DNA of 64,000 nt from contig OY282369.1 in assembly GCA_958295735.1 (NCBI GenBank), forward strand, positions 1,906,161 through 1,970,160, given 5' to 3'. This DNA comes from an uncultured Candidatus Cenarchaeum sp. (lineage in GTDB: Archaea; Thermoproteota; Nitrososphaeria; Nitrososphaerales; Nitrosopumilaceae). The position numbers were made by a program, and so were the translations under genes. This document shows positions 1 through 63,438 of this stretch, piece after piece (position 1 is the stretch's first letter; each line of letters begins with the position of its first letter). The notes below the pieces were generated by a model. The model searched no databases, had not been told where the DNA came from, and worked only from the letters and a program-made list of their open reading frames with translations.

Positions 1-292
1 CGGCGTGGTCGCCCAGCTGGAATTTCGCGTACCCGAGCTTGAGCAGCACCTCCACGCTGTCGGGGTCCAGCCTGAGGGCCTGCTCGAACGCCTCGGCGGC
101 CTCCTCCAGCTTTTCGTCCGCCATGAGGTTGACGCCCCTCTTGAACAGCTTTTTCCGCTGGTAGTCGGCATCGGTGAGCTCCGAGCCGGGCTTCGCGGGC
201 CCGGCGCCTTCTGCCCTCGCGGGAAGGCCGGCCTTTTCCGGGGCGCCGCCCCCCGGCGCGCCGTCCTGGCCTTCCCCGGGCGGCCCGCTCAT
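1..292 (-). CDS. TPR-repeat protein (partial, N-terminal part)
   Basis: The reading frame runs off the left edge of the window, leaving 97 codons. The first 45 residues or so are Gly/Pro/Ala-rich, followed by a tetratricopeptide-like helical pair with the pattern [20 protein letters not shown] and then [23 protein letters not shown] domains mediate protein-protein contacts; no specific partner can be inferred. The start ATG is at 290-292. An AT-rich stretch at about 310-325, reading TATTTA on the minus strand, lies about 25 nt upstream as expected for a leaderless archaeal gene. The TPR assignment rests on one and a half repeats. Confidence 0.7.
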
Positions 293-737
293 GCGGGCGT
301 CGGCGCTCCCTTTGGATAAATACCATTCCAAGCGCCGCCCCCGCCGCCCCCCCCCCGCGCGCCGGAAGATCCGGGACGCCGCATCGCCGCCCCCGCCGCC
401 CCCCCCCGCGCGGCCGCGCGGGCGGCCGCGGGGACGCGATGCGGGCGGCCGCGGGGAAGTGGGGCGCCGCCGGGCAGGCCGGCACGGGCCGCGGCGGGGC
501 GGGCCGGCGCACGGGAGGCCTGCGGGGCCGGCCGCGCCCCGCAGCCCGGCCGCGGGGCGGGCGCATCCTGGCCGGCGCTGCGCGCGCGGAGCCGCCCGCT
601 CCGGGCCGGGCGCGGACCAGGATCCGCGGGGGCGTTCCCGCGCCCGCGGCTGCCGGGCGCGAGTACCCGCGCGGCAGCATCTTGAAAATACAGAAATACT
701 TCGTGGTGAGTACCCGGGCGGGTTGGATGCGGCCAGA

Positions 738-3035
738 ATGGTGAGGGTGCAGGGGGCGGCGCCGTTCAGCCAGCCCGGCGTGTTCGAGGTGGTGATCTCC
801 CTCGCCGCGCAGCGGCCTCCCGCCGCCGGCATAGATGCCAAGAACTTTCCCGTCCTCTGGAGCGACCGCTTCCACCTGCGCGTGAAGGACGGCCGCTTCG
901 ACGAGGTGCTCGGAAGCGCGGAGAACCCGATCCCCGACTCGGTGTTCGCGCTGCGCACCGCTTGGGTGGTAGTGACCGACCAGTTCTCTACCACGCATTC
1001 CGTATTCGACATAGTGGTGCCCGATGCCGCCCCGCAGCCGGCGCCCCCGCCCGCCGCCCCGCAGCCGGCGCCCCCGCCCGCCGCCCCGCAGCCGGCGCCC
1101 CCGCCCGCCGCCCCGCAGCCGGCGCCCCCGCCCGCCGCCCCGCAGCCGGCGCCCCCGCCCGCCGCCCCGCAGCCGGCGCCCCCGCCCGCCGCCCCGCAGC
1201 CGGCGCCCCCGCCCGCCGCCCCGCAGCCGGCGCCCCCCGCCTGGCAGTCGCCGCCAAGCGAGAGGGGGCGGCAGGGCCCGCCAGGCGACAAGGGCCCGAG
1301 CGGCCAGCCGGGCGAGAGGGGGCGGCAGGGCCCGCCAGGCGACAAGGGCCCGAGCGGCCAGCCGGGCGAGAGGGGGCGGCAGGGCCCGCCAGGCGACAAG
1401 GGCCCGCCAGGCGACAAGGGCCCGAGCGGCCAGCCGGGCGAGAGGGGCCAGGCCGGCCAGTCGGGACCCTCGGGCGACAAGGGGCCGCAGGGCCAAAAGG
1501 GCCTGACCGGCGACAAGGGCGACAGGGGCGACAAGGGCCAGTCGGGCCCGATCGGCGAAAAGGGCGAGCGGGGCCCCTCGGGACCCCAGGGCGACAAGGG
1601 CCCGCAGGGCCCGCGGGGCCCGATCGGCGAAAAGGGCGAGCGGGGCCACTCGGGACCCCAGGGCGACAAGGGCCCGCAGGGCCCGCGGGGCCCGATCGGC
1701 GAAAAGGGCGACACGGGGCCGACCGGCCAGCTTGGCGACAAGGGGCTTACCGGCGAGCGGGGCCCGTCAGGCTCCAAAGGCGAGACGGGCTCGGCCGGGC
1801 CCCTCGGCGACAAGGGCATACAGGGCCCCGCCGGCCCGCCCGGCGACAAGGGAACCGTCGGACCTCCCGGCGAGAACGGCCCCGCCGGCCCGCCGGGGCA
1901 ACAGGGCAAGGACGGGCCCGCGGGCCCCCAGGGGCTCTCGGGCGACAAGGGCCCCGCCGGTCCCACCGGCCCGCTCGGCGCGAAGGGCCTTACGGGGCCG
2001 GAGGGGGAGAAGGGGCTCACGGGGCCGGCGGGACCGCAGGGCAAGGAGGGCCCCCAGGGGCAGATGGGCGAGAAAGGGCTCACGGGGCCGGCGGGACCGC
2101 AGGGCAAGCAGGGCGAACCCGGGCAGGGCGGCCCGCCCGGCGAGGCGGGGGTGCAGGGCCCCGCCGGCCCGCTAGGAGAACAGGGCCCCGCCGGCTCGCC
2201 CGGCGAGGACGGCCCCGCCGGCCCCCAGGGCCAGCAGGGCAAGCAGGGCGAACCCGGGCCAGGCGGCCCGCCCGGCGAGGCCGGAGTGCAGGGCCCCGCC
2301 GGCCCGCCGGGCGACAAGGGACCGACCGGCCGGCCCGGCGAGGAGGGACACACCGGCCCGCAGGGGCCCCAGGGCAAGCAGGGCGAACCCGGGCCAGGCG
2401 GCCCGCCCGGCGAGGCCGGAGTGCAGGGCCCTGCCGGCCCGCCCGGCCCGAAAGGCCCCGCGGGGCCTTTCGGCGAGAAGGGGCAGCAGGGCCCGCAGGG
2501 GCCCCAGGGCAAGCAGGGCGTCACCGGCCAGCAGGGGCAGGGAGGCGAGAAGGGCCCGCAGGGGCCCCAGGGCGAGCCGGGGGAAAAGGGCCTGACGGGG
2601 GTCCCCGGCCCCCAGGGCGAGCCGGGGGAAAAGGGCCCGATGGGCCAGCAGGGCGAGAGGGGCCACCAGGGGCAGCAGGGTCCCTCCGGCGAGAAGGGCC
2701 CCACGGGCCCACAGGGCCAGCAGGGCGAGAGGGGAATCCAGGGCCCGCCAGGCGAGAAGGGCCCCACGGGCCCCCAGGGGATCCAGGGCCAGCAGGGCGA
2801 GAGGGGGACGTCCGGCCCCGACGGGCCGGCGGGCGGGGCGGGCCCGCGCGGCACGCAGGGCCCGCTGGGCCCTCCCGGGCCGCGGGGCCCGCCGGGGCCG
2901 CCGGGCGACAAGGGCCAGTCCGGCGGGATGCCCGATGCGCAGAAGGCGATGTTCAAGGATCTGCTCGAGGCGCTCACCGCCAAGAGCGTCATCACCACGG
3001 AAGAGCAGATCCGGCTCATGAGCTACCTGTACTGA
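738..3035 (+). CDS. Collagen-like Gly-X-Y repeat protein
   Basis: About 765 residues. Residues 1-95 form a compact non-repetitive domain of unknown family. Next comes a Pro/Ala linker of eight 9-residue PQPAPPPAA units (nt 1024-1240), then about 185 uninterrupted Gly-X-Y triplets rich in GDKGP, GEKG and GPQGP (nt 1258-2930), and a 35-residue helical tail ending in MSYLY. Such proteins form collagen-like triple helices and usually act at the cell surface or in adhesion, but no signal peptide is visible with this start. A TTG at 723 is also in frame and lies 26 nt downstream of the AT-rich element near 690-700, so it may be the true leaderless start. Domain order and repeats are read directly; a surface or host-interaction role is inference. 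Confidence 0.8.
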
Positions 3036-3511
3036 CGGGCCTTCCTGCCGCGCGCCCGCGGCGGGCGCGCCGCGCGGGTGCCGCGGCATCGGCCGCGGCG
3101 AGTCCGCCCCGCGCGCGGAGGCGGAACGGGGCCGCGGCGGAGTGGACGCGGATCGATTTCCGGTTTTGCCGGACTGCTTTTTGGCCGTCGGGCGATCGGG
3201 ATGCGCGCCGCCGCCGCGCGCTTTGAGCGCGCGATCTGCGGCCGGCGGCGCCCCCCGCCCCGCCCTGATCGCATCCAACGCGGGCACGCGAACCTCCCTG
3301 CTAGCGATCGCCCGGCAGCCGCTTTCGGGCTCCGGTTCGGATCGCGGCGGGCAGATGCGAGACGCGCCGCGCTGGATTCCCGCGCCCCCGCCCCGCAACG
3401 CCAGGAGCGGCTCGTGATCGCGCGCGCGGCCCGCCCGGCCGGGCGGCGGCGCGGAGGCCAGAGGCGCGCGGCCGGCGCCCTTGAATCGTAATTAAAAATA
3501 CAAACGATCGC
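3036..3511. other. GC-rich intergenic region, nothing recognised
   Basis: Frames open here only because of high GC content; none shows a recognisable domain or a promoter-start arrangement. No RNA gene or element copy was recognised. Confidence 0.5.
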
Positions 3512-4615
3512 TTAGCCGCTGCCGGACTGATCCGTGGGCGGGTCCGCTATGTAGTCCTGCTTGACCGGGTGGCCGGCTTTTTCCTTCCGTTCGTCGGGCG
3601 CTTCTTTGTAGCTGTCGAAGCTCTCCTTCCGTTCGTCGGGCGCTTCTTTGTAGCTGTCGAAGCTCTCCTTCCGTTCGTCGGGCGCTTCTTTGTAGCTGTC
3701 GAAGCTCTCCTTCCGTTCGTCGGGCGCTTCTTTGTAGCTGTCGAAGCTCTCCTTCCGTTCGTCGGGCGCTTCTTTGTAGCTGTCGAAGCTCTCCTTCCGT
3801 TCGTCGGGCGCTTCTTTGTAGCTGTCGAAGCTCTCCTTCCGTTCGTCGGGCGCTTCTTTGTCGCGGCCGGCTTCGCTGTAGGAGCTCTCCTTCCGTTCGT
3901 CGGGCGCTTCTTTGTAGCTGTCGAAGCTCTCCTTCCGTTCGTCGGGCGCTTCTTTGTCGCGGCCGGCTTCGCTGTAGGAGCTCTCCTTCCGTTCGTCGGG
4001 CGCTTCTTTGTAGCTGTCGAAGCTCTCCTTCCGTTCGTCGGGCGCTTCTTTGTAGCTGTCGAAGCTCTCCTTCCGTTCGTCGGGCGCTTCTTTGTAGCTG
4101 TCGAAGCTCTCCTTCCGTTCGTCGGGCGCTTCTTTGTAGCTGTCGAAGCTCTCCTTCCGTTCGTCGGGCGCTTCTTTGTAGCTGTCGAAGCTCTCCTTCC
4201 GTTCGTCGGGCGCTTCTTTGTCGCGGCCGGCTTCGCTGTAGGAGCTCTCCTTCCGTTCGTCGGGCGCTTCTTTGTAGCTGTCGAAGCTCTCCTTCCGTTC
4301 GTCGGGCGCTTCTTTGTCGCGGCCGGCTTCGCTGTAGGAGCTCTCCTTCCGTTCGTCGGGCGCTTCTTTGTCGCGGCCGGCTTCGCTGTAGGAGCTCTCC
4401 TTCCGTTCGTCGGGCGCTTCTTTGTAGCTGTCGAAGCTCTCCTTCCGTTCGTCGGGCGCTTCTTTGTCGCGGCCGGCTTCGCTGTAGGAGCTCTCCTTCC
4501 GTTCGTCGGGCGCTTTCGTGCAACGGCCGGCCTCGCATCGGACCTTTCGCTCTTTGCCTGTCTTGCCATCGCTAAGGTGAAAATGAAGTTGTTTTTTTAC
4601 TATTGAACTTAACAA
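3512..4615 (-). CDS. Tandem-repeat protein of mixed charge; reading frame uncertain
   Basis: The region is a mosaic of 42-nt and 54-nt units. Both lengths are multiples of three and contain no stops, so several frames stay open. The frame annotated here reads KEAPDERKESFDSY (14 aa) and an 18-aa variant with SYSEAGRDKEAP, ending in a unique tail KAGHPVKQDYIADPPTDQSG. It has the highest third-position GC: 11 of 14 codons in the repeat and about 18 of 22 in the tail, against 8 of 14 for the alternative. It needs a TTG start at 4613-4615. The alternative, ATG 4569 to 3547, would give a basic H1-like protein with ATKKRPTNGRRAST repeats. Neither frame matches a family I recognise. A gene is likely present, but which frame is translated is unresolved. 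Confidence 0.45.
   Translation of the reverse strand: MLSSIVKKQLHFHLSDGKTGKERKVRCEAGRCTKAPDERKESSYSEAGRDKEAPDERKESFDSYKEAPDERKESSYSEAGRDKEAPDERKESSYSEAGRDKEAPDERKESFDSYKEAPDERKESSYSEAGRDKEAPDERKESFDSYKEAPDERKESFDSYKEAPDERKESFDSYKEAPDERKESFDSYKEAPDERKESFDSYKEAPDERKESSYSEAGRDKEAPDERKESFDSYKEAPDERKESSYSEAGRDKEAPDERKESFDSYKEAPDERKESFDSYKEAPDERKESFDSYKEAPDERKESFDSYKEAPDERKESFDSYKEAPDERKESFDSYKEAPDERKEKAGHPVKQDYIADPPTDQSGSG
3580..4515. repeat. Interspersed 42-nt and 54-nt tandem repeats
   Basis: Two unit types share a CTCCTTCCGTTCGTCGGGCG core followed by CTTCTTTGT and differ in the linker (TAGCTGTCGAAG against CGCGGCCGGCTTCGCTGTAGG). Copies are virtually identical and arranged irregularly, which points to recent unequal exchange or slippage. 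Confidence 0.9.
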
Positions 4616-4671: not shown

Positions 4672-5173
4672 TTAGGCAACCCTAATTCTGGGCGGCCGGC
4701 GGGAGATCATTACGTGCCGCGCCGGCCCGAACACGAGCCAGAACTCGAAAATGTGCCAGGTTACGCACTGGAAGCGGCAGCCCCGCTTGCCCGTGTCCGC
4801 CGTACGAGGTCAGCACCCCCCACTCCTCAGGCGTGAATCCGGATCGGCGAAGTCGTTTTCACGCCTGTAATTGACGGGTACGTGACCTCATACTGTCCGC
4901 CCCGATGATCTCCAGCGCGAGCCCGGCCGCCGGCGCCACGAACTCGGGCAGCGCCTCGCGCTTCCCCGCAAGCCGGCGCTCCTCCGCATCCGCATCGGCG
5001 GCGCAGTCTGGCGCGCGCCGCGCGCTGCTGCCGACCATGGAAAAGCGCGCCGGGAATGCACTGATCGTGCAGTTCGCGCTTCTCGTCGCGGGGCGGATCT
5101 CCCTGATCGACTTGCGGGCGTTCCCAATCCTCCGGCGCTTCCTGCACGTTTCCGGCGGGTCACTCTCCAGCAT
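4672..5173 (-). pseudogene. Unknown gene interrupted by a 92-bp mobile element
   Basis: From an ATG at 5171-5173 the minus strand has a frame with very high third-position GC that runs into the element at 4802-4893 and stops inside it. The element is flanked by TGTCCGCC on both sides. Removing the element and one copy of that 8-mer leaves 402 nt, an exact 134 codons ending at TAA 4672-4674. The restored C-terminus contains CRFQCVTWHIFEFWLVFGPA. The restored 133-residue protein has no family I recognise; it has a CxxxC pair and an aromatic-rich C-terminal half. Annotating it as one disrupted gene is inferred from frame restoration and codon bias. Confidence 0.6.
4802..4893 (-). mobile_element. 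Element A copy 1 (92-bp inverted-repeat element, MITE-like)
   Basis: The ends are GTACGAGGTCA and TGACCTCATAC, forming a terminal inverted repeat. Inside is a second inverted repeat, AGGCGTGAAT with TTTTCACGCCT. Exact 8-bp direct repeats TGTCCGCC lie at 4794-4801 and 4894-4901, the signature of a target-site duplication. The element has no coding capacity. It interrupts the gene described at 4672-5173. Confidence 0.85.
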
Positions 5174-5665
5174 CCGCCCGATCCTGCACCGCGGCACGTG
5201 GCGAGCGCGGGGTGCCGCCGCGCCCGCCCGCCGCCTGTTTGGCGCACGCGCTTTTCGACGACCGGCCAAAAGGCGGACTGCGTCCCGTCCCCGGCCGTCG
5301 CCCCCCTTCCGCGCGCGAGCGCCGGCGCCGCGATCGGGGCGCGCCTTCCGCGCGGCGCGCCGTGCCTGCCCGGCGGGAGGATCCGGAGCGCCGCGGCCGG
5401 CGCGTGCAGGGTGCCGGATGCGCTTGCGGCGACCGGCGACCGGCGCCCCGGTCCGCCGCCGTGGTGCGTGGCGGCGGATCGAAGCGCCGCCCGTTGGCCG
5501 CCGGCGCCCCGGGAACCGATCCGCGCGCCCGGCAAGCCTTGGACATCCTGGCCGGCAGGGCCGCGCCCGGAGCGGGAGCGCATCGACTTCCGGCGCGGCC
5601 GCGGCGGGGCCGATCGCGCCGCCGCCCCGCGGCGGCAAAAGCGGGAACGCCGGCGGGGAGGGGGG
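5174..5665. other. GC-rich intergenic region, nothing recognised
   Basis: No convincing gene, RNA or element copy seen between the disrupted gene and the 3-prime end of the DRG GTPase gene. Confidence 0.45.
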
Positions 5666-16903: not shown

Positions 16904-16995
16904 GTATGAGGTCACGTACCCGTCAGTCACAGGCGTGAAAACGCCTTCGCTGATCTAGATTCACGCCTGAATAGTGGGGGTTGCTGACCTCGTAC
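16904..16995 (+). mobile_element. Element A copy 2
   Basis: The 92-bp element begins GTATGAGGTCACGTACCCGT and ends GTTGCTGACCTCGTAC, with internal stem AGGCGTGAAA / ATTCACGCCT. Orientation is opposite to copy 1. Flanking 8-mers (TGTGGGGG and GAGGGGGG) match in six positions, so the duplication is decayed or ambiguous. Confidence 0.75.
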
Positions 16996-17049
16996 GAGGG
17001 GGGAGGGGGCTGTACACGCTTATCTCCTCTCCCCCGCCGCGACTTGGGG

Positions 17050-27079: not shown

Positions 27080-28147
27080 CTACGACCTTTCGGCCAGCCA
27101 GCCGCCGAGCTCGGGCAGGATCCTCTTCTGCGACGAAGAGCTCGCTATCATCCCAACGTGCCCCGTGGGGTATATCCTCATCGTCTTGTCCCCGCTCCCC
27201 ACGGCGTAGTGCAGCGGCATGCTGCACTCCGGGGACACCAGGTGGTCGCCCACCGCGACCTGGGTGAACACGGGCATCCTGATCTCCTTCAGGGATACGC
27301 GCCGCCCGCCCACGAACATCATGTCGCGGGCCAGCAGGTTCTCCTGGTAGATGTCCCTTATCCACTGCCGGAACAGCTCGCCCGGGATGGGGGGCGTGTC
27401 CGCGAGCCACTTTTCGACGCGCATAAAGTTGTCCACGAACGCCTCGTTCTCTATGTTGTTGAAAAAATTCGCGTACTTTTCCAGGCCCTGCTCGAAGGGC
27501 TTCAGCACCGAAAAGCAGTAGTACATGAACTCCGGCGGCATGTTCCCCACGGTGTCCACCATCTTGTCGATGTCCACGTGCCTCGCTATGTTGCTCACCA
27601 CCGTGGTGTCCTTCCAGCCGTCCACCACGGGGGCCGTGGCGACCAGGTTCCTGACGCTGCCGGGGTGCAGGGCCGCGTACGTGACCGCGAGCGTACCGCC
27701 GGTGCAGTACCCCTGGAGGGAGACGTCCGGCGACCGCGACTCCCGCTTCACGAACTCCACGCAGTTGTCCATGTAGCCGTTGACGTAGTCGTCAAAGTCC
27801 AGGTACCTGTCCATGTCGGTCGGGCTTCCCCAGTCGATCATGTACACGTCGAACCCCTGTTCCAGCAGGTTGCGCACCCAGCTCTTGTCGGGGTGTATGT
27901 CTAGTATGTGGAAGCGGTTGATCAGCGCGTAGGTTATCACCAGGGGGGTGCGGTGGCGCGCCTCGGACCGCGGCCTGTAGTGCAGCAGCCTCATCCTGTC
28001 CTCCTCGTACGCCACGTCGTAGGCGGTGGTGTCGAGCTTTATCTCGTCGGGCGCGGCCGCAAGCTTGGGGGCATCGCTGACGTGCCTCCCGAACCGTATG
28101 ATCTCCTCTATCACCTTTGGGTCTATTCCCGCCTTCGGTTCCATCAT
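27080..28147 (-). CDS. phaC: Class III poly(3-hydroxyalkanoate) synthase subunit PhaC
   Basis: 355 residues, the usual length of class III PhaC. An alpha/beta hydrolase-fold enzyme that polymerizes hydroxyacyl-CoA at the PHA granule surface. The lipase-like box is GYCTGG with catalytic Cys148; Asp301 (AVGDHLVSPE) and His330 (PTGHVGM) complete the triad at positions nearly identical to those known for the Allochromatium enzyme. The ATG start overlaps the phaE stop by four bases (ATGA), implying coupled translation. Family and reaction are firm; the monomer used is not determinable. Confidence 0.95.
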   Translation of the reverse strand: MMEPKAGIDPKVIEEIIRFGRHVSDAPKLAAAPDEIKLDTTAYDVAYEEDRMRLLHYRPRSEARHRTPLVITYALINRFHILDIHPDKSWVRNLLEQGFDVYMIDWGSPTDMDRYLDFDDYVNGYMDNCVEFVKRESRSPDVSLQGYCTGGTLAVTYAALHPGSVRNLVATAPVVDGWKDTTVVSNIARHVDIDKMVDTVGNMPPEFMYYCFSVLKPFEQGLEKYANFFNNIENEAFVDNFMRVEKWLADTPPIPGELFRQWIRDIYQENLLARDMMFVGGRRVSLKEIRMPVFTQVAVGDHLVSPECSMPLHYAVGSGDKTMRIYPTGHVGMIASSSSQKRILPELGGWLAERS

Positions 28148-33698: not shown

Positions 33699-34292
33699 AT
33701 GACCGAGCTCGGGCTGGGTGCGCGCGTGAGCCAGACCCGGAGGCGGATCGAGCAGATCCGCGCGGAGCTCGGCGAGATGACCGAGCCGGAGGATCTGCCC
33801 TGGATGATCCGCAACACCAACGTGCTCCGGCTGAACGAGTACTTGTCTGAGGCCAACCGGAAGCAGTCGGAGCTGCTCGCGGCGTACGGGGAGTACGCGG
33901 GCCAGCTGGAGTCGTTCGTCTCGACGGCCCTGGAGATCCAGATGGATCTCAAGGACGTGCTGCGGGACCAGTCGCGCCTCATAGACGACGCCGCCGGCGC
34001 CCCGCGCCCCGCCAAGAAGGGCGCCGCCAAGGCCGGACGGCAGCCCGCCGGCGCCCCGCGCCCCGCCAAGAAGGGCGCCGCCAAGGCCGGACGGCAGCCC
34101 GCCGGCGCCCCGCGCCCCGCCAAGAAGGGCGCCGCCAAGGCCGGACGGCAGCCCGCCGGCGCCCCGCGCCCCGCCAAGAAGGGCGCCGCCAAGGCCGGAC
34201 GGCAGCCCGCCGGCGCCCCGCGCCCCGACAAGGCCGGACGGCAGCCCGCCGGCGCCCCGCGCCCCGCCAAGAAGGGCGCCGGCAAGGCCTGA
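33699..34292 (+). CDS. Hypothetical helical protein with H1-like Lys/Ala/Pro repeat tail
   Basis: 197 residues. The first 100 form predicted helices (TRRRIEQIRAELGEMTEPED, LSEANRKQSELLAAYGEYAG, LEIQMDLKDVLRDQSRLID). The rest is an 18-aa basic unit, GAPRPAKKGAAKAGRQPA, repeated four to five times plus a shortened copy. Tails of this composition resemble histone H1 and bacterial histone-like tails and usually bind nucleic acid (inference). The ATG at 33699 lies 27 nt from GGCTTTAACC; the earlier ATG at 33684 is too close. The N-terminal domain matches no family I recognise. Confidence 0.7.
   Translation: MTELGLGARVSQTRRRIEQIRAELGEMTEPEDLPWMIRNTNVLRLNEYLSEANRKQSELLAAYGEYAGQLESFVSTALEIQMDLKDVLRDQSRLIDDAAGAPRPAKKGAAKAGRQPAGAPRPAKKGAAKAGRQPAGAPRPAKKGAAKAGRQPAGAPRPAKKGAAKAGRQPAGAPRPDKAGRQPAGAPRPAKKGAGKA
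34005..34280 (+). repeat. 54-nt tandem repeats encoding basic tail
   Basis: Copies of a 54-nt unit beginning GGCGCCCCGCGCCCCGCCAA are nearly identical; one copy lacks 18 nt. The frame is preserved. Confidence 0.9.
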
Positions 34293-38957: not shown

Positions 38958-39097
38958 GATGCTGCGTATGCGGTCAGCACCCCCCGCGCCGGCCGCGGCG
39001 CCCCGCGCCCAGGCCGGCTCGGGGCGGGGAGCCTCCCCGCCGCCGGCGTCGGTCCCGCGCCGGCCGCGGCGCCCCGCGCCCAGACCCGCCTTGCTGC

Positions 39098-39775
39098 TTA
39101 TTCGGCCGCGCCCTTGCCGCGCGCCCTCCGGGCCAGGACGCGCGCCGCGGAGCCGGGCATGCGCCCCATGGCCGCCGGGCCTCCCTTGATCTGCCCGCTT
39201 GTCTCGCGGAACACCACGGCGCAGCGCAGGGCGCGCCCCGGGGAGCTGTTGGCCGGTTCGACGCGAAGGTGTGCGCCTTCGACGTAGTAAGCAGCGCAGG
39301 GCGCGCCCCGGGGAGCTGTTGGCCGGCTCCGCCTCCGGTTGCTCCGGGAACGCGGGCAGGATCGGCACGGCCCCTTCGATCCCGGCGACGAGCTTTTCCA
39401 GCCGCTCGCCGCCCGAGTCCCGGTACCGGTCCGGCGCGCCTCCCAGCGCCACCTCCGCGGCCCGGCGCAGCCGCGCCGACGGCGCCCCGCCGTCGCGCAG
39501 CAGGACGGCCCCCGCGCACGCGCGCGGCAGGTCCCCGCCCAGCAGGCGCGCGTGCGGATGCGCCCCGCACACGTCCGCGACGTGCCCGGCGCCGCGCGGC
39601 CCGCGGGACCGGCAGTCCAGGCGCTTTCCGCCCGGATCGAACGCCCCGCGCGGGCGGCGGCCGCCCGCGGTCGCGCATCCCCCGTGCCCGCCCGCGTGCG
39701 CGTCGATCGCCCCCCTGCCCCTGCTCCTGTCGCATATGGCGAACTTGCTGGGGCCCGACTGGACGGCGCGGAGGC
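39098..39775 (-). pseudogene. Captured gene fragment inside the 950-bp element
   Basis: The minus strand has a frame with almost only G/C in third positions. It reads SKFAICDRSRGRGAIDAHAG, then GGKRLDCRSRG, AGHVADVCGAHPHARLLGGD and a helical ERLEKLVAGIEGAVPILPAF. No start codon exists before the inverted arm, so the 5-prime end is missing. A 70-bp insertion (36-bp direct repeat at 39221 and 39291 around 34 bp) shifts the frame; skipping it gives FRETSGQIKGGPAAMGRMPG and a stop TAA at 39098-39100. Cys/His spacing suggests a metal-binding protein, but no family is recognised. Confidence 0.5.
39221..39326. repeat. 36-bp direct repeat around a 34-bp hairpin
   Basis: GCAGCGCAGGGCGCGCCCCG continued by GGGAGCTGTTGGCCGG is repeated exactly at 39221-39256 and 39291-39326. 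The 34 bp between contain CGAAGGTGTGCGCCTTCG, a hairpin. The arrangement interrupts the captured reading frame. Confidence 0.8.
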
Positions 39776-39961
39776 TCCCAGCCCCGGGCCGGCCTGGGCG
39801 CGGGGCGCCGCGGCCGGCGGGGGACCGACGCCGGCGGCGCGGAGGCTCCCAGCCCCGGGCCGGCCTGGGCGCGGGGCGCCGCGGCCGGCGGGGGGGGGGG
39901 GTGCCGACCTCGTACGATGCTGCTCACAACATATTTAATACACTCGCGGAACAGCGCGGCA

Positions 39962-41111: not shown

Positions 41112-41203
41112 GTATGGGGCCACGTACCCGCCAGTCACGGGCGTGAAAACGACTTTGCTGATCCGGATTCGCGCCCGAGGAGTGGGGGGTGCTGACCTCA
41201 CAC
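41112..41203 (+). mobile_element. Element A copy 3
   Basis: The 92-bp element starts GTATGGGGCCACGTACCCGC and ends GTGCTGACCTCACAC. The internal stem is GGGCGTGAAA with TTCGCGCCC; the unmatched T/G would be a G-U pair in RNA. GCGCCCGC flanks it exactly (41104-41111 and 41204-41211). A second, diverged A core follows at 41226-41297 (GCGCGGATCCGGATCGGCGA, GCGCCCTCGCGACTGC). The element sits just upstream of the TATA for the gene ending at 40705. Confidence 0.87.
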
Positions 41204-41309
41204 GCGCCCGCGCACGGGGCAGGCGGCCCGCGCCCCGCGGGCGCGGATCCGGATCGGCGAAAGCGCCCTCGCGACTGCGGCCGGCGGGCGCGCGCCCCGC
41301 CCGCCCCCG

Positions 41310-47934: not shown

Positions 47935-48023
47935 GTATGATGTCAGCACCCCCAACTCAGGCGTGAATCTGGATCAGCGAAGTCGTTTTCACGCCTGTGA
48001 CTGACGGGTACGTGACCTCATAC
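47935..48023 (-). mobile_element. Element A copy 4
   Basis: The 89-bp copy starts GTATGATGTCAGCACCCCCA and ends GACGGGTACGTGACCTCATAC (shown from GACGGG). GGCGGGCG lies on both sides (47927-47934 and 48024-48031). It ends 18 nt before the TATA-like CTTTAATT of the DNA ligase gene and could influence that promoter. Confidence 0.87.
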
Positions 48024-58912: not shown

Positions 58913-60139
58913 CTAGAGCGCCTTGAAGTTCTCGCTCCACTGGTAGTACGCCCTGAGCATCTCGTGCGAGACGCTCGGCTTCCTGCGGGTCATGATGTTC
59001 CGAAAGTCGGCGATCGCGACGTCCCGGGGCTGCTGCGCCGGCTCGCCCCCGCCGTCCTGCCCGCCGCCGTCCCCGCCCTCGCCCGTCGGCTCGCGGTACT
59101 CGGGGCTGTTGAACATCTCGTGGACCACGCGCAGCTGGGCCGCCTGGCAGACGTCCTTTATGTCGCTGGCGCTGTACCCCTCGAACAGCTTTGCGAGCAG
59201 GGGGATCTTCAGGCTGGGTTCCTTCTTGAGCGGATCCGTGTACAGCGAGAACAGGTTGTGGCGCGCCTCGACCGTGGGCAGGTTCACGTAGATCCGCTTT
59301 TGGAACCTGCGCAGGAACGGCCAGTCCAGGCTCCACGGCTTGTTGGTCGCCCCTATCACGTACAACTTCAGGTCCTTGCCCTTCCCGTTGACGCCGTCCA
59401 TCTCGGTGAGGAACTGGTTCTTCACCCTTACCTCGCCCCCCACCTCGCTGTTCCGCGAGCCCAGGAGCGAGTCGACCTCGTCGACGAACAGTATCACGGG
59501 CTTGCCCTCCTTTTCGGCGTACCCGCGCGCCATGGAGAACAGCTTTGAGACGTTCTTTTCCGCCTCGCCCAGCCACTTGCTCATCATGGAGGCGGCGTCC
59601 ACGTTTATGAAGTAGCCGTCGATCTCGCTGGCGGTGGCCGCCGCCAGTATGGTCTTGCCGCAACCCGGGGGGCCGTACAGCAGCATGCCCCTCGGCCACC
59701 CGAGGGGGAACAGGTCCTGCCTCTTCGACGGGTACACGATGGACTCGCGCAGGGCGTTCTTAGCGTCGTCGAGCCCGATCACCTCCGTCCAGCTGATGTT
59801 CGGCTTTTCCTTCATTATCAGGTCCTCGAAGTCGTTCTTGGCCTGGTGCTCGGCGAGGTTCGACTTTTGCTCCGCCGGGGACGCGGAGGGATCGACCGCC
59901 GGCTCTATGGGCGCGGACTCGCGCAGCAGCTTGATGCGCTTCTGGTAGGAGGCCGTGCGCTCCTTGTATATCGGGTTGAGCTTGCTGCGCGGGTACAACT
60001 GCATGAGCTTCATCAGCGAGTCGATCGCCTTTTGGTAGTTCGTTATCGCCATCCCGCGCGCGCCCTGCGAGTCGCACTTGATCGCCTCGCCGGCGTACTT
60101 GCTGGCGCTGTTCTCCAGTTCCTGCGGTGCCATGCTCAT
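58913..60139 (-). CDS. cdvC: CdvC / Vps4-type AAA ATPase
   Basis: 408 residues. The N-terminal MIT domain (about 5-75: ASKYAGEAIKCDSQGARGMA, YQKAIDSLMKLMQLYPRSKL) binds ESCRT-III partners. The AAA domain has Walker A GPPGCGKT (156-163), Walker B ILFVDEVD (216-223), arginine finger region RFQKRIYVNLP and a Vps4-type C-terminal helix VSHEMLRAYYQWSENFKAL. It disassembles the ESCRT-III polymer in archaeal cell division or membrane remodelling. A Gly/Asp-rich insertion lies near residue 355. Unlike neighbours it has a Shine-Dalgarno sequence. It is the third gene of the operon. Confidence 0.95.
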   Translation of the reverse strand: MSMAPQELENSASKYAGEAIKCDSQGARGMAITNYQKAIDSLMKLMQLYPRSKLNPIYKERTASYQKRIKLLRESAPIEPAVDPSASPAEQKSNLAEHQAKNDFEDLIMKEKPNISWTEVIGLDDAKNALRESIVYPSKRQDLFPLGWPRGMLLYGPPGCGKTILAAATASEIDGYFINVDAASMMSKWLGEAEKNVSKLFSMARGYAEKEGKPVILFVDEVDSLLGSRNSEVGGEVRVKNQFLTEMDGVNGKGKDLKLYVIGATNKPWSLDWPFLRRFQKRIYVNLPTVEARHNLFSLYTDPLKKEPSLKIPLLAKLFEGYSASDIKDVCQAAQLRVVHEMFNSPEYREPTGEGGDGGGQDGGGEPAQQPRDVAIADFRNIMTRRKPSVSHEMLRAYYQWSENFKAL

Positions 60140-60143
60140 CCGT

Positions 60144-60153
60144 ATCTCCTCCT
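60144..60153 (-). promoter_or_regulatory. Shine-Dalgarno sequence of cdvC
   Basis: AGGAGGAGAT lies four bases before ATG 60139. It is the clearest ribosome-binding site seen in the window, where most genes look leaderless. An AT-rich AATTAAGC near 60195 could also give a separate leadered transcript. Confidence 0.75.
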
Positions 60154-60220
60154 ACCTGTGGTGTCCCTTTGAGGCGGCATTGGCTGGTGTGAGCTTAATT
60201 GCGGTTTCATGTCAAACTAT

Positions 60221-62866
60221 TCACACCTGTTTCCGGCCCGTGGGGAACCACGGGCACGACGGGCGGGCGGGGCTCTTGGCGGGAGGGGGCGCCTCGGCCG
60301 CCGGAGGGGGCGCCTCGGCCGCCGGAGGGGGCGCCTCGGCCGCCGGAGGGGGCGCCTCGGCCGCCGGAGGGGGCGCCTCGGCCGCCGGAGGGGGCGCCTC
60401 GGCCGCCGGAGGGGGCGCCTCGGCCGCCGGAGGGGGCGCCTCGGCCGCCGGAGGGGGCGCCTCGGCCGCCGGAGGGGGCGCCTCGGCCGCCGGAGGGGGC
60501 GCCTCGGCCGCCGGAGGGGGCGCCTCGGCCGCCGGAGGGGGCGCCTCGGCCGCCGGAGGGGGCGCCTCGGCCGCCGGAGGGGGCGCCTCGGCCGCCGGAG
60601 GGGGCGCCTCGGCCGCCGGAGGGGGCGCCTCGGCCGCCGGAGGGGGCGCCTCGGCCGCCGGAGGGGGCGCCTCGGCCGCCGGAGGGGGCGCCTCGGCCGC
60701 CGGAGGGGGCGCCTCGGCCGCCGGAGGGGGCGCCTCGGCCGCCGGAGGGGGCGCCTCGGCCGCCGGAGGGGGCGCCTCGGCCGCCGGAGGGGGCGCCTCG
60801 GCCGCCGGAGGGGGCGCCTCGGCCGCCGGAGGGGGCGCCTCGGCCGCCGGAGGGGGCGCCTCGGCCGCCGGAGGGGGCGCCTCGGCCGCCGGAGGGGGCG
60901 CCTCGGCCGCCGGAGGGGGCGCCTCGGCCGCCGGAGGGGGCGCCTCGGCCGCCGGAGGGGGCGCCTCGGCCGCCGGAGGGGGCGCCTCGGCCGCCGGAGG
61001 GGGCGCCTCGGCCGCCGGAGGGGGCGCCTCGGTCGCCGGAGGGGGCGCCTCGGCCGCCGGAGGGGGCGCCTCGGCCGCCGGAGGGGGCGCCTCGGCCGCC
61101 GGAGGGGGCGCCTCGGCCGCCGGAGGGGGCGCCTCGGCCGCCGGAGGGGGCGCCTCGGCCGCCGGAGGGGGCGCCTCGGCCGCCGGAGGGGGCGCCTCGG
61201 CCGCCGGAGGGGGCGCCTCGGCCGCCGGAGGGGGCGCCTCGGCCGCCGGAGGGGGCGCCTCGGCCGCCGGAGGGGGCGCCTCGGCCGCCGGAGGGGGCGC
61301 CTCGGCCGCCGGAGGGGGCGCCTCGGCCGCCGGAGGGGGCGCCTCGGCCGCCGGAGGGGGCGCCTCGGCCGCCGGAGGGGGCGCCTCGGCCGCCGGAGGG
61401 GGCGCCTCGGCCGCCGGAGGGGGCGCCTCGGCCGCCGGAGGGGGCGCCTCGGCCGCCGGAGGGGGCGCCTCGGCCGCCGGAGGGGGCGCCTCGGCCGCCG
61501 GAGGGGGCGCCTCGGCCGCCGGAGGGGGCGCCTCGGCCGCCGGAGGGGGCGCCTCGGCCGCCGGAGGGGGCGCCTCGGCCGCCGGAGGGGGCGCCTCGGC
61601 CGCCGGAGGGGGCGCCTCGGCCGCCGGAGGGGGCGCCTCGGCCGCCGGAGGGGGCGCCTCGGCCGCCGGAGGGGGCGCCTCGGCCGCCGGAGGGGGCGCC
61701 TCGGCCGCCGGAGGGGGCGCCTCGGCCGCCGGAGGGGGCGCCTCGGCCGCCGGAGGGGGCGCCTCGGCCGCCGGAGGGGGCGCCTCGGCCGCCGGAGGGG
61801 GCGCCTCGGCCGCCGGAGGGGGCGCCTCGGCCGCCGGAGGGGGCGCCTCGGCCGCCGGAGGGGGCGCCTCGGCCGCCGGAGGGGGCGCCTCGGCCGCCGG
61901 AGGGGGCGCCTCGGCCGCCGGAGGGGGCGCCTCGGCCGCCGGAGGGGGCGCCTCGGCCGCCGGAGGGGGCGCCTCGGCCGCCGGAGGGGGCGCCTCGGCC
62001 GCCGGAGGGGGCGCCTCGGCCGCCGGAGGGGGCGCCTCGGCCGCCGGAGGGGGCGCCTCGGCCGCCGGAGGGGGCGCCTCGGCCGCCGGAGGGGGCGCCT
62101 CGGCCGCCGGAGGGGGCGCCTCGGCCGCCGGAGGGGGCGCCTCGGCCGCCGGAGGGGGCGCCTCGGCCGCCGGAGGGGGCGCCTCGGCCGCCGGAGGGGG
62201 CGCCTCGGCCGCCGGAGGGGGCGCCTCGGCCGCCGGAGGGGGCGCCTCGGCCGCCGGAGGGGGCGCCTCGGCCGCCGGAGGGGGCGCCTCGGCCGCCGGA
62301 GGGGGCGCCTCGGCCGCCGGAGGGGGCGCCTCGGCCGCCGGAGGGGGCGCCTCGGCCGCCGGAGGGGGCGCCTCGGCCGCCGGAGGGGGCGCCTCGGCCG
62401 CCGGAGGGGGCGCCTCGGCCGCCGGAAAGGCGGCCGGGAGGCCGGTTGCCGGCCCCCTCGCCTCCCTTTCCGCCGCATGGACGTTCTCCGCTCCCCCCAT
62501 GCGCAGCTGCATGGCGCGTATTCGCGCCATCGCGTCCTCGGCGGAGACCACGATCTCGTTGATGTCGCCGTCCAGCCTCCCGATGTCTTCAACGGAGCGG
62601 GTTATCACGTCCACGAACTCCTGCAGCAGGTCGCGCACGTCCTCCTTGTCCTCGTGCTTTGAGAGGACGAACCAGGCCATGTGCAGCACGCTGTACGTGT
62701 CCTGCAGCTCCTCGGCGTCCATGCCCGCCACCACCTTCCTGTACGCGCCGTCAGCGTCCTTTTCCCGCCCCTCCCGCAACCGCTCCTTCACCAGCGCCGA
62801 GAGTCCCGCTATGCGCGCCGCCTGCCGGCGGCGCTCCCTGCCGCCCCTCCCCCCCAGTATGCTCAA
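60221..62866 (-). CDS. Cdv operon protein with about 102 copies of a 7-residue Pro/Ala/Glu repeat
   Basis: 881 residues. Residues 1-150 are helical and non-repetitive ([60 protein letters not shown]); no family recognised. Residues from about 150 to 860 are PPPAAEA repeated about 102 times, encoded by a 21-nt unit with only one seen base change (Ala to Thr near 61031). The last 19 residues include a Cys-Pro-Trp and end TGRKQV. The TTG start overlaps the stop of the ESCRT-III-like gene (TTGA) and cdvC follows after 81 bp. Pro-rich peptides are known to bind MIT domains, so the repeat may bind CdvC (inference). Confidence 0.75.
60287..62425 (-). repeat. 21-nt tandem array, about 102 copies
   Basis: The unit GGGGGCGCCTCGGCCGCCGG plus A repeats over about 2.14 kb. 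All copies look identical except one C-to-T change at about 61031. The length and identity indicate recent expansion; copy number may vary among cells or be misjudged in assembly. Confidence 0.95.
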
Positions 62867-63438
62867 CCGGTGTCTTGTATACGCAATGCTAGATTAGGAT
62901 ACAGCTCGCTTAATTTAGAGCAGGCGATCAACTTTGCTTCATCAAGCAGAGCCGCGGACTCTAGGTTGTGGCGGCCAAAGTCGCACGAGGCCCCCGTCAT
63001 GCTCGCAGAGTCCGCCATCACGCTCCCGAGTATGGAGGAGACCTCGCACAGCAGGGCGCTGTACCCCGGATAGGCGGCGTGCAGCGCCGAGCTGAGCCCC
63101 CGCGCGGCCGGGATCATGGGGGGGAGCACCTCGGGCGCCCGCCGCAGCAGGGTGAGCCGGGCCAGCCGCCTCTGCATGTGGCGGGTCACGTGCACGGACA
63201 CGCGGAGCAGCATCTCCCTCTCGATCCCCTCGCGGGCCGCCCTGGCCGGGCCGGGCGCGCGGGCGGCGTTGCGCCTGCGCACCAGGTCGCGCTCGCGCCG
63301 CATGGACGACAGCAGCCCCCCGACCGCCCCCCTCGCCAGGTCCAGCCGCGGCAGTATGGCCCGCGTGCGCAGGGCCGCGGCGCGGGCGGCCGGCTCCTGG
63401 TGGAGGAGGAGGGAGGGCGCCCGCGCCGCGGCCTGCAT
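62863..63438 (-). CDS. ESCRT-III / CdvB-like protein
   Basis: 191 residues, mostly helical. The order of helices and residues AILPRLDLARGAVGGLLSSM, RRERDLVRRRNAARAPG, EREMLLRVSVHVTRHMQRRL and ARGLSSALHAAYPGYSALLC then EVSSILGSVM resembles CdvB/Snf7 proteins, which polymerize at the division site. The family MIM2 motif is not evident, perhaps because the next gene supplies a Pro-rich partner. ATG 63438 lies 27 nt from GGTATATCAG. It is the first gene of an operon with the repeat protein and cdvC. Assignment rests on pattern and context. Confidence 0.72.
   Translation of the reverse strand: MQAAARAPSLLLHQEPAARAAALRTRAILPRLDLARGAVGGLLSSMRRERDLVRRRNAARAPGPARAAREGIEREMLLRVSVHVTRHMQRRLARLTLLRRAPEVLPPMIPAARGLSSALHAAYPGYSALLCEVSSILGSVMADSASMTGASCDFGRHNLESAALLDEAKLIACSKLSELYPNLALRIQDTG

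Follow-up and report, generated by a model that had tools for sequence, protein, structure and literature searches.

A 92-bp MITE inserted in a decayed ISH3-like transposase relic whose joined reading frame resembles a gene, in an ammonia-oxidising archaeon

Does the removal of one short element from this DNA restore a gene that was intact until recently? The sequence analysed here (64,000 nucleotides, referred to throughout as the window) is part of a host genome that consists of one contig of 3,166,131 bp. The 8-mer TGTCCGCC occurs at positions 4794-4801 and 4894-4901 of the window, and if the flanks are joined so that a single copy remains, the result is, as the initial annotation reported, 133 amino acids followed by a TAA (4672-4674, minus strand), with high GC3 on both sides of the joint (0.88 upstream, 0.84 downstream). 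From this it was concluded that the intervening DNA, element A, had moved into a formerly intact gene, and so recently that no other damage could be seen.

The features of element A are as follows.

4802..4893, plus strand: element A, a 92-bp MITE with TIRs GTACGAGGTCA / TGACCTCATAC (42 genome matches; ends and flanks of each copy)
4794..4801, no strand: left copy of the 8-bp target-site duplication (TSD) TGTCCGCC, identical to 4894-4901
4894..4901, no strand: right copy of the 8-bp TSD TGTCCGCC, identical to 4794-4801
16904..16996, minus strand: further copy of element A (genome matches)
41112..41204, minus strand: further copy of element A (genome matches)
47935..48023, plus strand: further copy of element A, TSD GGCGGGCG (genome matches and flank comparison)

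Element A is a non-autonomous MITE. The host genome contains 42 matches at E ≤ 0.001 (focal copy included), the ends are GTAYGAGGTCA and its complement, and the TIRs of the focal copy are retained in most others. The element is non-coding and generates a TSD of fixed length (8 bp), as is expected of a MITE: among 41 correctly framed copies the 8-bp flanks are identical in 22 and differ by one mismatch in 6 more, compared with 0.1% identical and 0.9% with one mismatch in control pairings of mismatched left and right flanks. This count leaves out the 42nd copy (501974), whose flanks are identical. When inspected for covariation, pairs within the element proved mostly invariant. Among 200 genomes of the family, only the host's own carries matches to element A; a pattern scan of genome contigs returned 0 matches, from a set in which the host's own or near records may be absent. 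The focal element is identical at 92/92 bases to the copy at 501872, whose flanks differ, and this identity together with the perfect TSD identifies the insertion as young, so the recent move that the initial annotation proposed is borne out.

The likely source of this mobility resides in the host genome itself. Exact matches to the end motif GTAYGAGGTCAGC number 37 genome-wide, versus 4 for a reversed-pattern control, and three pairs of these sites enclose IS66 elements of 1889, 1889 and 1911 bp. The ends of the three elements read GTATGAGGTCAGCACC, with one end GTACGAGG..., their TSDs are exact 8-mers on both sides (GGCGCGTT, GCGGCGCG and ACTGATGT), and their transposases are almost identical to one another. 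The transposase of this partner exceeds the thresholds of both Pfam DDE_Tnp_IS66 (PF03050; E 7e-28, 98.2 bits, cutoff 23.1) and NCBIfam IS66 (NF033517; 184.3 bits, curated cutoff 180). Element A therefore shares its ends with three autonomous elements of its own genome, and the common ends and common TSD length make the IS66 transposase its likely engine, acting in trans. The likeness is confined to the terminal ~13-20 bases, with no internal sequence in common, which could point to mobilisation by a transposase other than that of IS66; we regard this as very improbable, given the excess of GTAYGAGGTCAGC sites over the control, the three site pairs that bound IS66 elements, and the 8-bp TSDs made by element A and the IS66 elements alike. 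The main text of a published overview of insertion sequences in thaumarchaea (PMC6563490) contains no mention of IS66. We recognised no IS66-driven MITEs in archaea, and no prior description of a MITE paired with an IS66 partner in an ammonia-oxidising archaeon, in the literature searched, whose coverage leaves out most subscription journals; the insertion of element A as such is ordinary transposon biology.

Some copies of element A are stacked beside other elements. An IS66-type terminal repeat (at least 12/16 bases) lies within 200 bp of 20/84 element A flanks, the distance being exactly 8 bp for 13 of these and 7-9 bp for 17 (pairs of element A copies are counted from both sides), while control stretches 400 bp further out give 3/64 with scattered offsets. 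Examples are L002/L076 (501872-502063), L006, L008, L010, L013 and L020; at 501872/501974, a single 8-mer is present three times around two element A copies. At 2607655, 817003 and 2419622 the far flank of the neighbouring element differs, and what is targeted may thus be the end of that neighbour and not the duplication beside it. Nothing in the literature searched (again with most subscription journals outside its coverage) was recognised as insertion at a distance of 8 bp from the end of a second element. A second family of 91-92-bp MITEs has ends GTGTAGACTTACGTCC and 8-bp TSDs (e.g., 27263-27354, 33939-34030 and 703064-703155 of G000); the IS66 element L100 has the same ends, and those of L095 are close. 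The window also contains, at 38980-39897, a pair of 111-nt inverted repeats (94% complementary) around an IS66 transposase relic (39267-39779).

The insertion at the focal site is shown by comparison with related loci. Thirteen related loci of the host genome align to the window (blastn). With element A in place, those that match both sides break at about 4799 and 4894; with it removed, all 13 non-self loci align uninterrupted through the site. Element A inserted here, and the empty site is present at 13/13 related loci. It is this DNA homology across the junction that proves the insertion, and not the open frame: in dinucleotide-matched random sequence, 133 codons are open by chance in 11% of cases in a given frame and in 65% in any of six, and a second frame is likewise open through the joined site. 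We therefore rejected the open joined frame as proof of an intact gene. The initial annotation had named uninterrupted, collinear homologues as the support to look for. Such homologues span the site at all 13 loci, but they belong to the host's own genome. When the joined protein was compared with 61 genomes, the host yielded 13 further matches (8 at E ≤ 1.4e-8; the seven best with 43-51% amino acid identity); the other 60 gave four weak matches (E 0.013-0.55), none of them a convincing homologue. Judged from these searches, the homologues of the joined frame are paralogues carried by the host itself.

The paralogues also disclose what the target was.

4738..5598, minus strand, 5' end approximate: the target, an ISH3-like insertion sequence surviving as a relic (blastn to 13 loci; 3' TIR)
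4759..5289, minus strand: C-terminal remnant of the transposase, split by element A, with frame-breaking indels near the upstream end (alignment)
5289..5293, minus strand: joint of an internal deletion, with ~585 bp of L038 (790-1374) absent (abutting L038 HSPs 1780-1375 and 789-560)
4756..4758, minus strand: TGG in place of the transposase stop TAG (codon alignment to relatives)
4738..4757, minus strand: degenerate 3' TIR of the old insertion sequence, 16/20 bases (highest TIR match when both strands of the 64-kb window are compared)
4672..4737, minus strand: last 22 codons (including the TAA) of the 'restored gene', DNA outside the old insertion sequence (position relative to the 3' TIR)

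The next-best match to the old TIR in the 64-kb window has 14/20 bases. The longest intact ORFs related to the target encode 401-402 amino acids and match Pfam DDE_Tnp_1 (PF01609). The best NCBIfam match of intact relatives is ISH3 (NF033541; E 6e-33 and 1.4e-37), with scores of 114.3 and 129.4 bits that lie below the curated cutoff of 225; membership in ISH3 was dropped for this reason, and the target is classed as ISH3-like. Since neither Pfam nor NCBIfam has a family that the relic itself matches at E ≤ 0.1, its identity depends on alignment to paralogues: its DNA is 69-76% identical to the long copies, and the joined frame is 52% identical to the L038 transposase over the aligned part. L042 and L043 are identical copies with TIRs CAGAAGATGAAAATGTACT and 4-bp duplications. 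TSDs in the target family (gccc in L042, gcgc in L043, actt in L039) are short, and those of the ISH3 family are typically 4-5 bp. The target's own family is ruled out as the source of element A's movement by its ends (CAGAAGATGAAAATGT versus GTAYGAGGTCA) and TSD (4 bp versus 8). The 3' flanks of the ISH3-like elements L038 and L039 read acttac(c/g)t, and the flanks of L039 suggest that it inserted into an IS66-type terminal repeat GTGTAGACTTACGTCC. Transposases related to the target are present in 9/200 genomes of the family, host included, with 34% identity over most of the protein in the best match outside the host; the 401-aa transposase has no match among solved structures.

By alignment, then, the 'restored 134-codon gene' is not a gene; it corresponds to the C-terminal region of a decayed ISH3-like transposase. 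The motif Y(2)R(3)E(6)K, the signature of IS4-type DDE transposases, is present in the intact relative L038 as YRQRWRIENAYKSIK; in the focal relic it reads CRKRRRIGNARKSIR, with the glutamate lost (GAG to GGG). Residues ~60-254 fall, by their position in the protein alignment, in the deleted ~585 bp, along with the aspartates of FDMH and LADREF, which are candidate catalytic residues. The ATG assigned to the 'gene' is preceded by indels of 5, 5, 2 and 2 bp. Since the stop TAG has become TGG, the frame continues through the old 3' TIR and for 22 codons beyond the old element. The claim of no other damage fails on each of these points (the 585-bp deletion, the frame-breaking indels, the lost catalytic glutamate and the lost stop), all independent of element A.

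Why a dead transposase should have so open a frame is explained by the unusual way in which relics in this genome decay. We took sites where L038 and L042 agree as the ancestral state and pooled seven relics (the focal copy, L041, L044, L045, L046, L047 and L048), leaving out L049 and the nearly unchanged L040 (9 changes at 341 sites), with L037 and L039 as near-intact controls. In the pooled relics, A/T had changed to G/C at 252/591 sites (0.43) and G/C to A/T at 51/1100 (0.05), whereas A/T-to-G/C changes were 0/125 in L037, 0/125 in L039 and 4/122 in L040. Both A-to-G and T-to-C changes are present, and codon positions 1 and 2 behave alike. The rates imply a simple equilibrium GC of 0.90, matching the GC3 of 0.92 and suggesting one genome-wide force, although the relics used may share part of their history. 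Within the window, Pfam-matched gene stretches have a GC of 0.674 and a GC3 of 0.924; GC is 0.715 in the remaining sequence, not counting arrays and the collagen-like ORF, and 0.779 in the relic stretch 4902-5660. In unpolarised comparisons of IS66 relics with an intact element, 9/10 show the same direction (0.30-0.63 versus 0.02-0.08 per site), the exception being L092, an IS66-type relic with little G+C drift (0.21 versus 0.11 per site). The bias is weaker among element A copies (0.142 versus 0.063), perhaps because their consensus is a rough ancestor.

Stop codons are affected accordingly. The ancestral TAG is lost in 5/6 relics in which the codon could be aligned and retained in the 5 near-intact copies compared; L049 is the relic that keeps it, and L048 has one in-frame stop. 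New in-frame stops number 1 in 738 aligned relic codons, and the catalytic glutamate codon is lost in 4/4 relics where it aligns. Dead DNA here drifts toward G+C and loses its stops, and the relic frame looked intact as a result. Tentatively, we generalise this to a genome in which unconstrained DNA decays G+C-ward (A-to-G and T-to-C, on both strands, toward an equilibrium of ~90% GC), so that dead genes lose their stops and mimic intact ones; we hold this broader proposal to be possible, though short of probable. The data are substitutions, and their source may be mutation, biased conversion among repeat copies, or selection. Hershberg and Petrov (PMC2936535, accessible part) describe AT-biased mutation in all bacterial clades they studied; if the proposal is true and its cause is mutation itself, and not biased conversion or selection, it would run contrary to the universally AT-directed mutation that has been reported for bacteria. 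Where relics drift in this way, an open frame with high GC3 is no evidence of a gene and a lack of stops is no evidence of recent intactness, and nested, datable relic families offer a direct measure of the decay spectrum of a high-GC archaeon.

The window has several other features. A tandem array adjoins the relic (3492-4615), with several frames open on both strands, and another (60078-62900; 21-bp period, very high GC) has several frames open for ~780-940 codons. A 953-aa ORF (174-3032) gives strong matches to the Pfam Collagen triple helix (E 9.5e-77). The EF-1A in the window is 85-90% identical to records from Nitrosopumilaceae and related thaumarchaea; sponge-associated Nitrosopumilaceae members have a GC of 47-67% according to the accessible sections of PMC7848895.

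The transposase fragment could in principle have become a domesticated gene, expressed as a small protein up to the point at which element A broke its frame, and the 133 open codons and the similarity to the L038 transposase would fit such a history. We consider it very improbable. A/T-to-G/C changes in the relic are similarly frequent at codon positions 1 and 2 (0.37 and 0.31 of A/T sites), other relics display the same positional pattern with no sign of protein constraint, and frame-breaking indels lie just upstream of the ATG. A recent disruption of an intact 133-aa host gene by element A is hardly credible despite the exact TSD, the open joined frame and the high GC3: the paralogues already refute it, the frame corresponds to the C-terminus of a transposase that has lost a catalytic residue and its stop, the last 22 codons of the frame lie beyond the end of the old insertion sequence, frames of this length open by chance, and a convincing homologue is absent from the 60 other genomes searched.

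We are thus almost certain of the overall account, in which an IS66-moved MITE landed in a dead ISH3-like relic whose frame was kept open by G/C-ward decay. Full-length elements of the same genome would supply the IS66 transposase, which would cut at the matching ends of element A and insert it into an 8-bp staggered target, here the already dead relic of an unrelated ISH3-like insertion sequence; the joined frame is open through the replacement of A/T by G/C during decay in this genome, with the removal of stops. The relic has 63 changes at 336 polarised sites and element A has 0/92 relative to its twin copy, which indicates that the insertion probably came late in the relic's decay, with most of the damage to the target preceding it, although some of the 63 may have arisen before that copy died.

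In comparison with known systems, the target resembles the ISH3 family and the IS4 group in its best NCBIfam match, its 4-bp TSD and the Y(2)R(3)E(6)K signature of its relatives, and is unlike ISH3 in that those relatives score 114 and 129 bits against a cutoff of 225. The partner resembles the IS66 family in a transposase above both curated cutoffs and an 8-bp TSD; unlike that family, several end-types coexist in the host genome, at least two of them with a 91-92-bp MITE. Element A itself has much in common with MITEPsy1 of Pseudomonas syringae as presented in the accessible part of PMC3189936: both are short, have TIRs and no ORF, occur in many copies and insert into other insertion sequences. 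They differ in their partner, which is entered there as 'IS5?' for MITEPsy1 and is, for element A, likely an IS66 element of a Nitrosopumilaceae archaeon.
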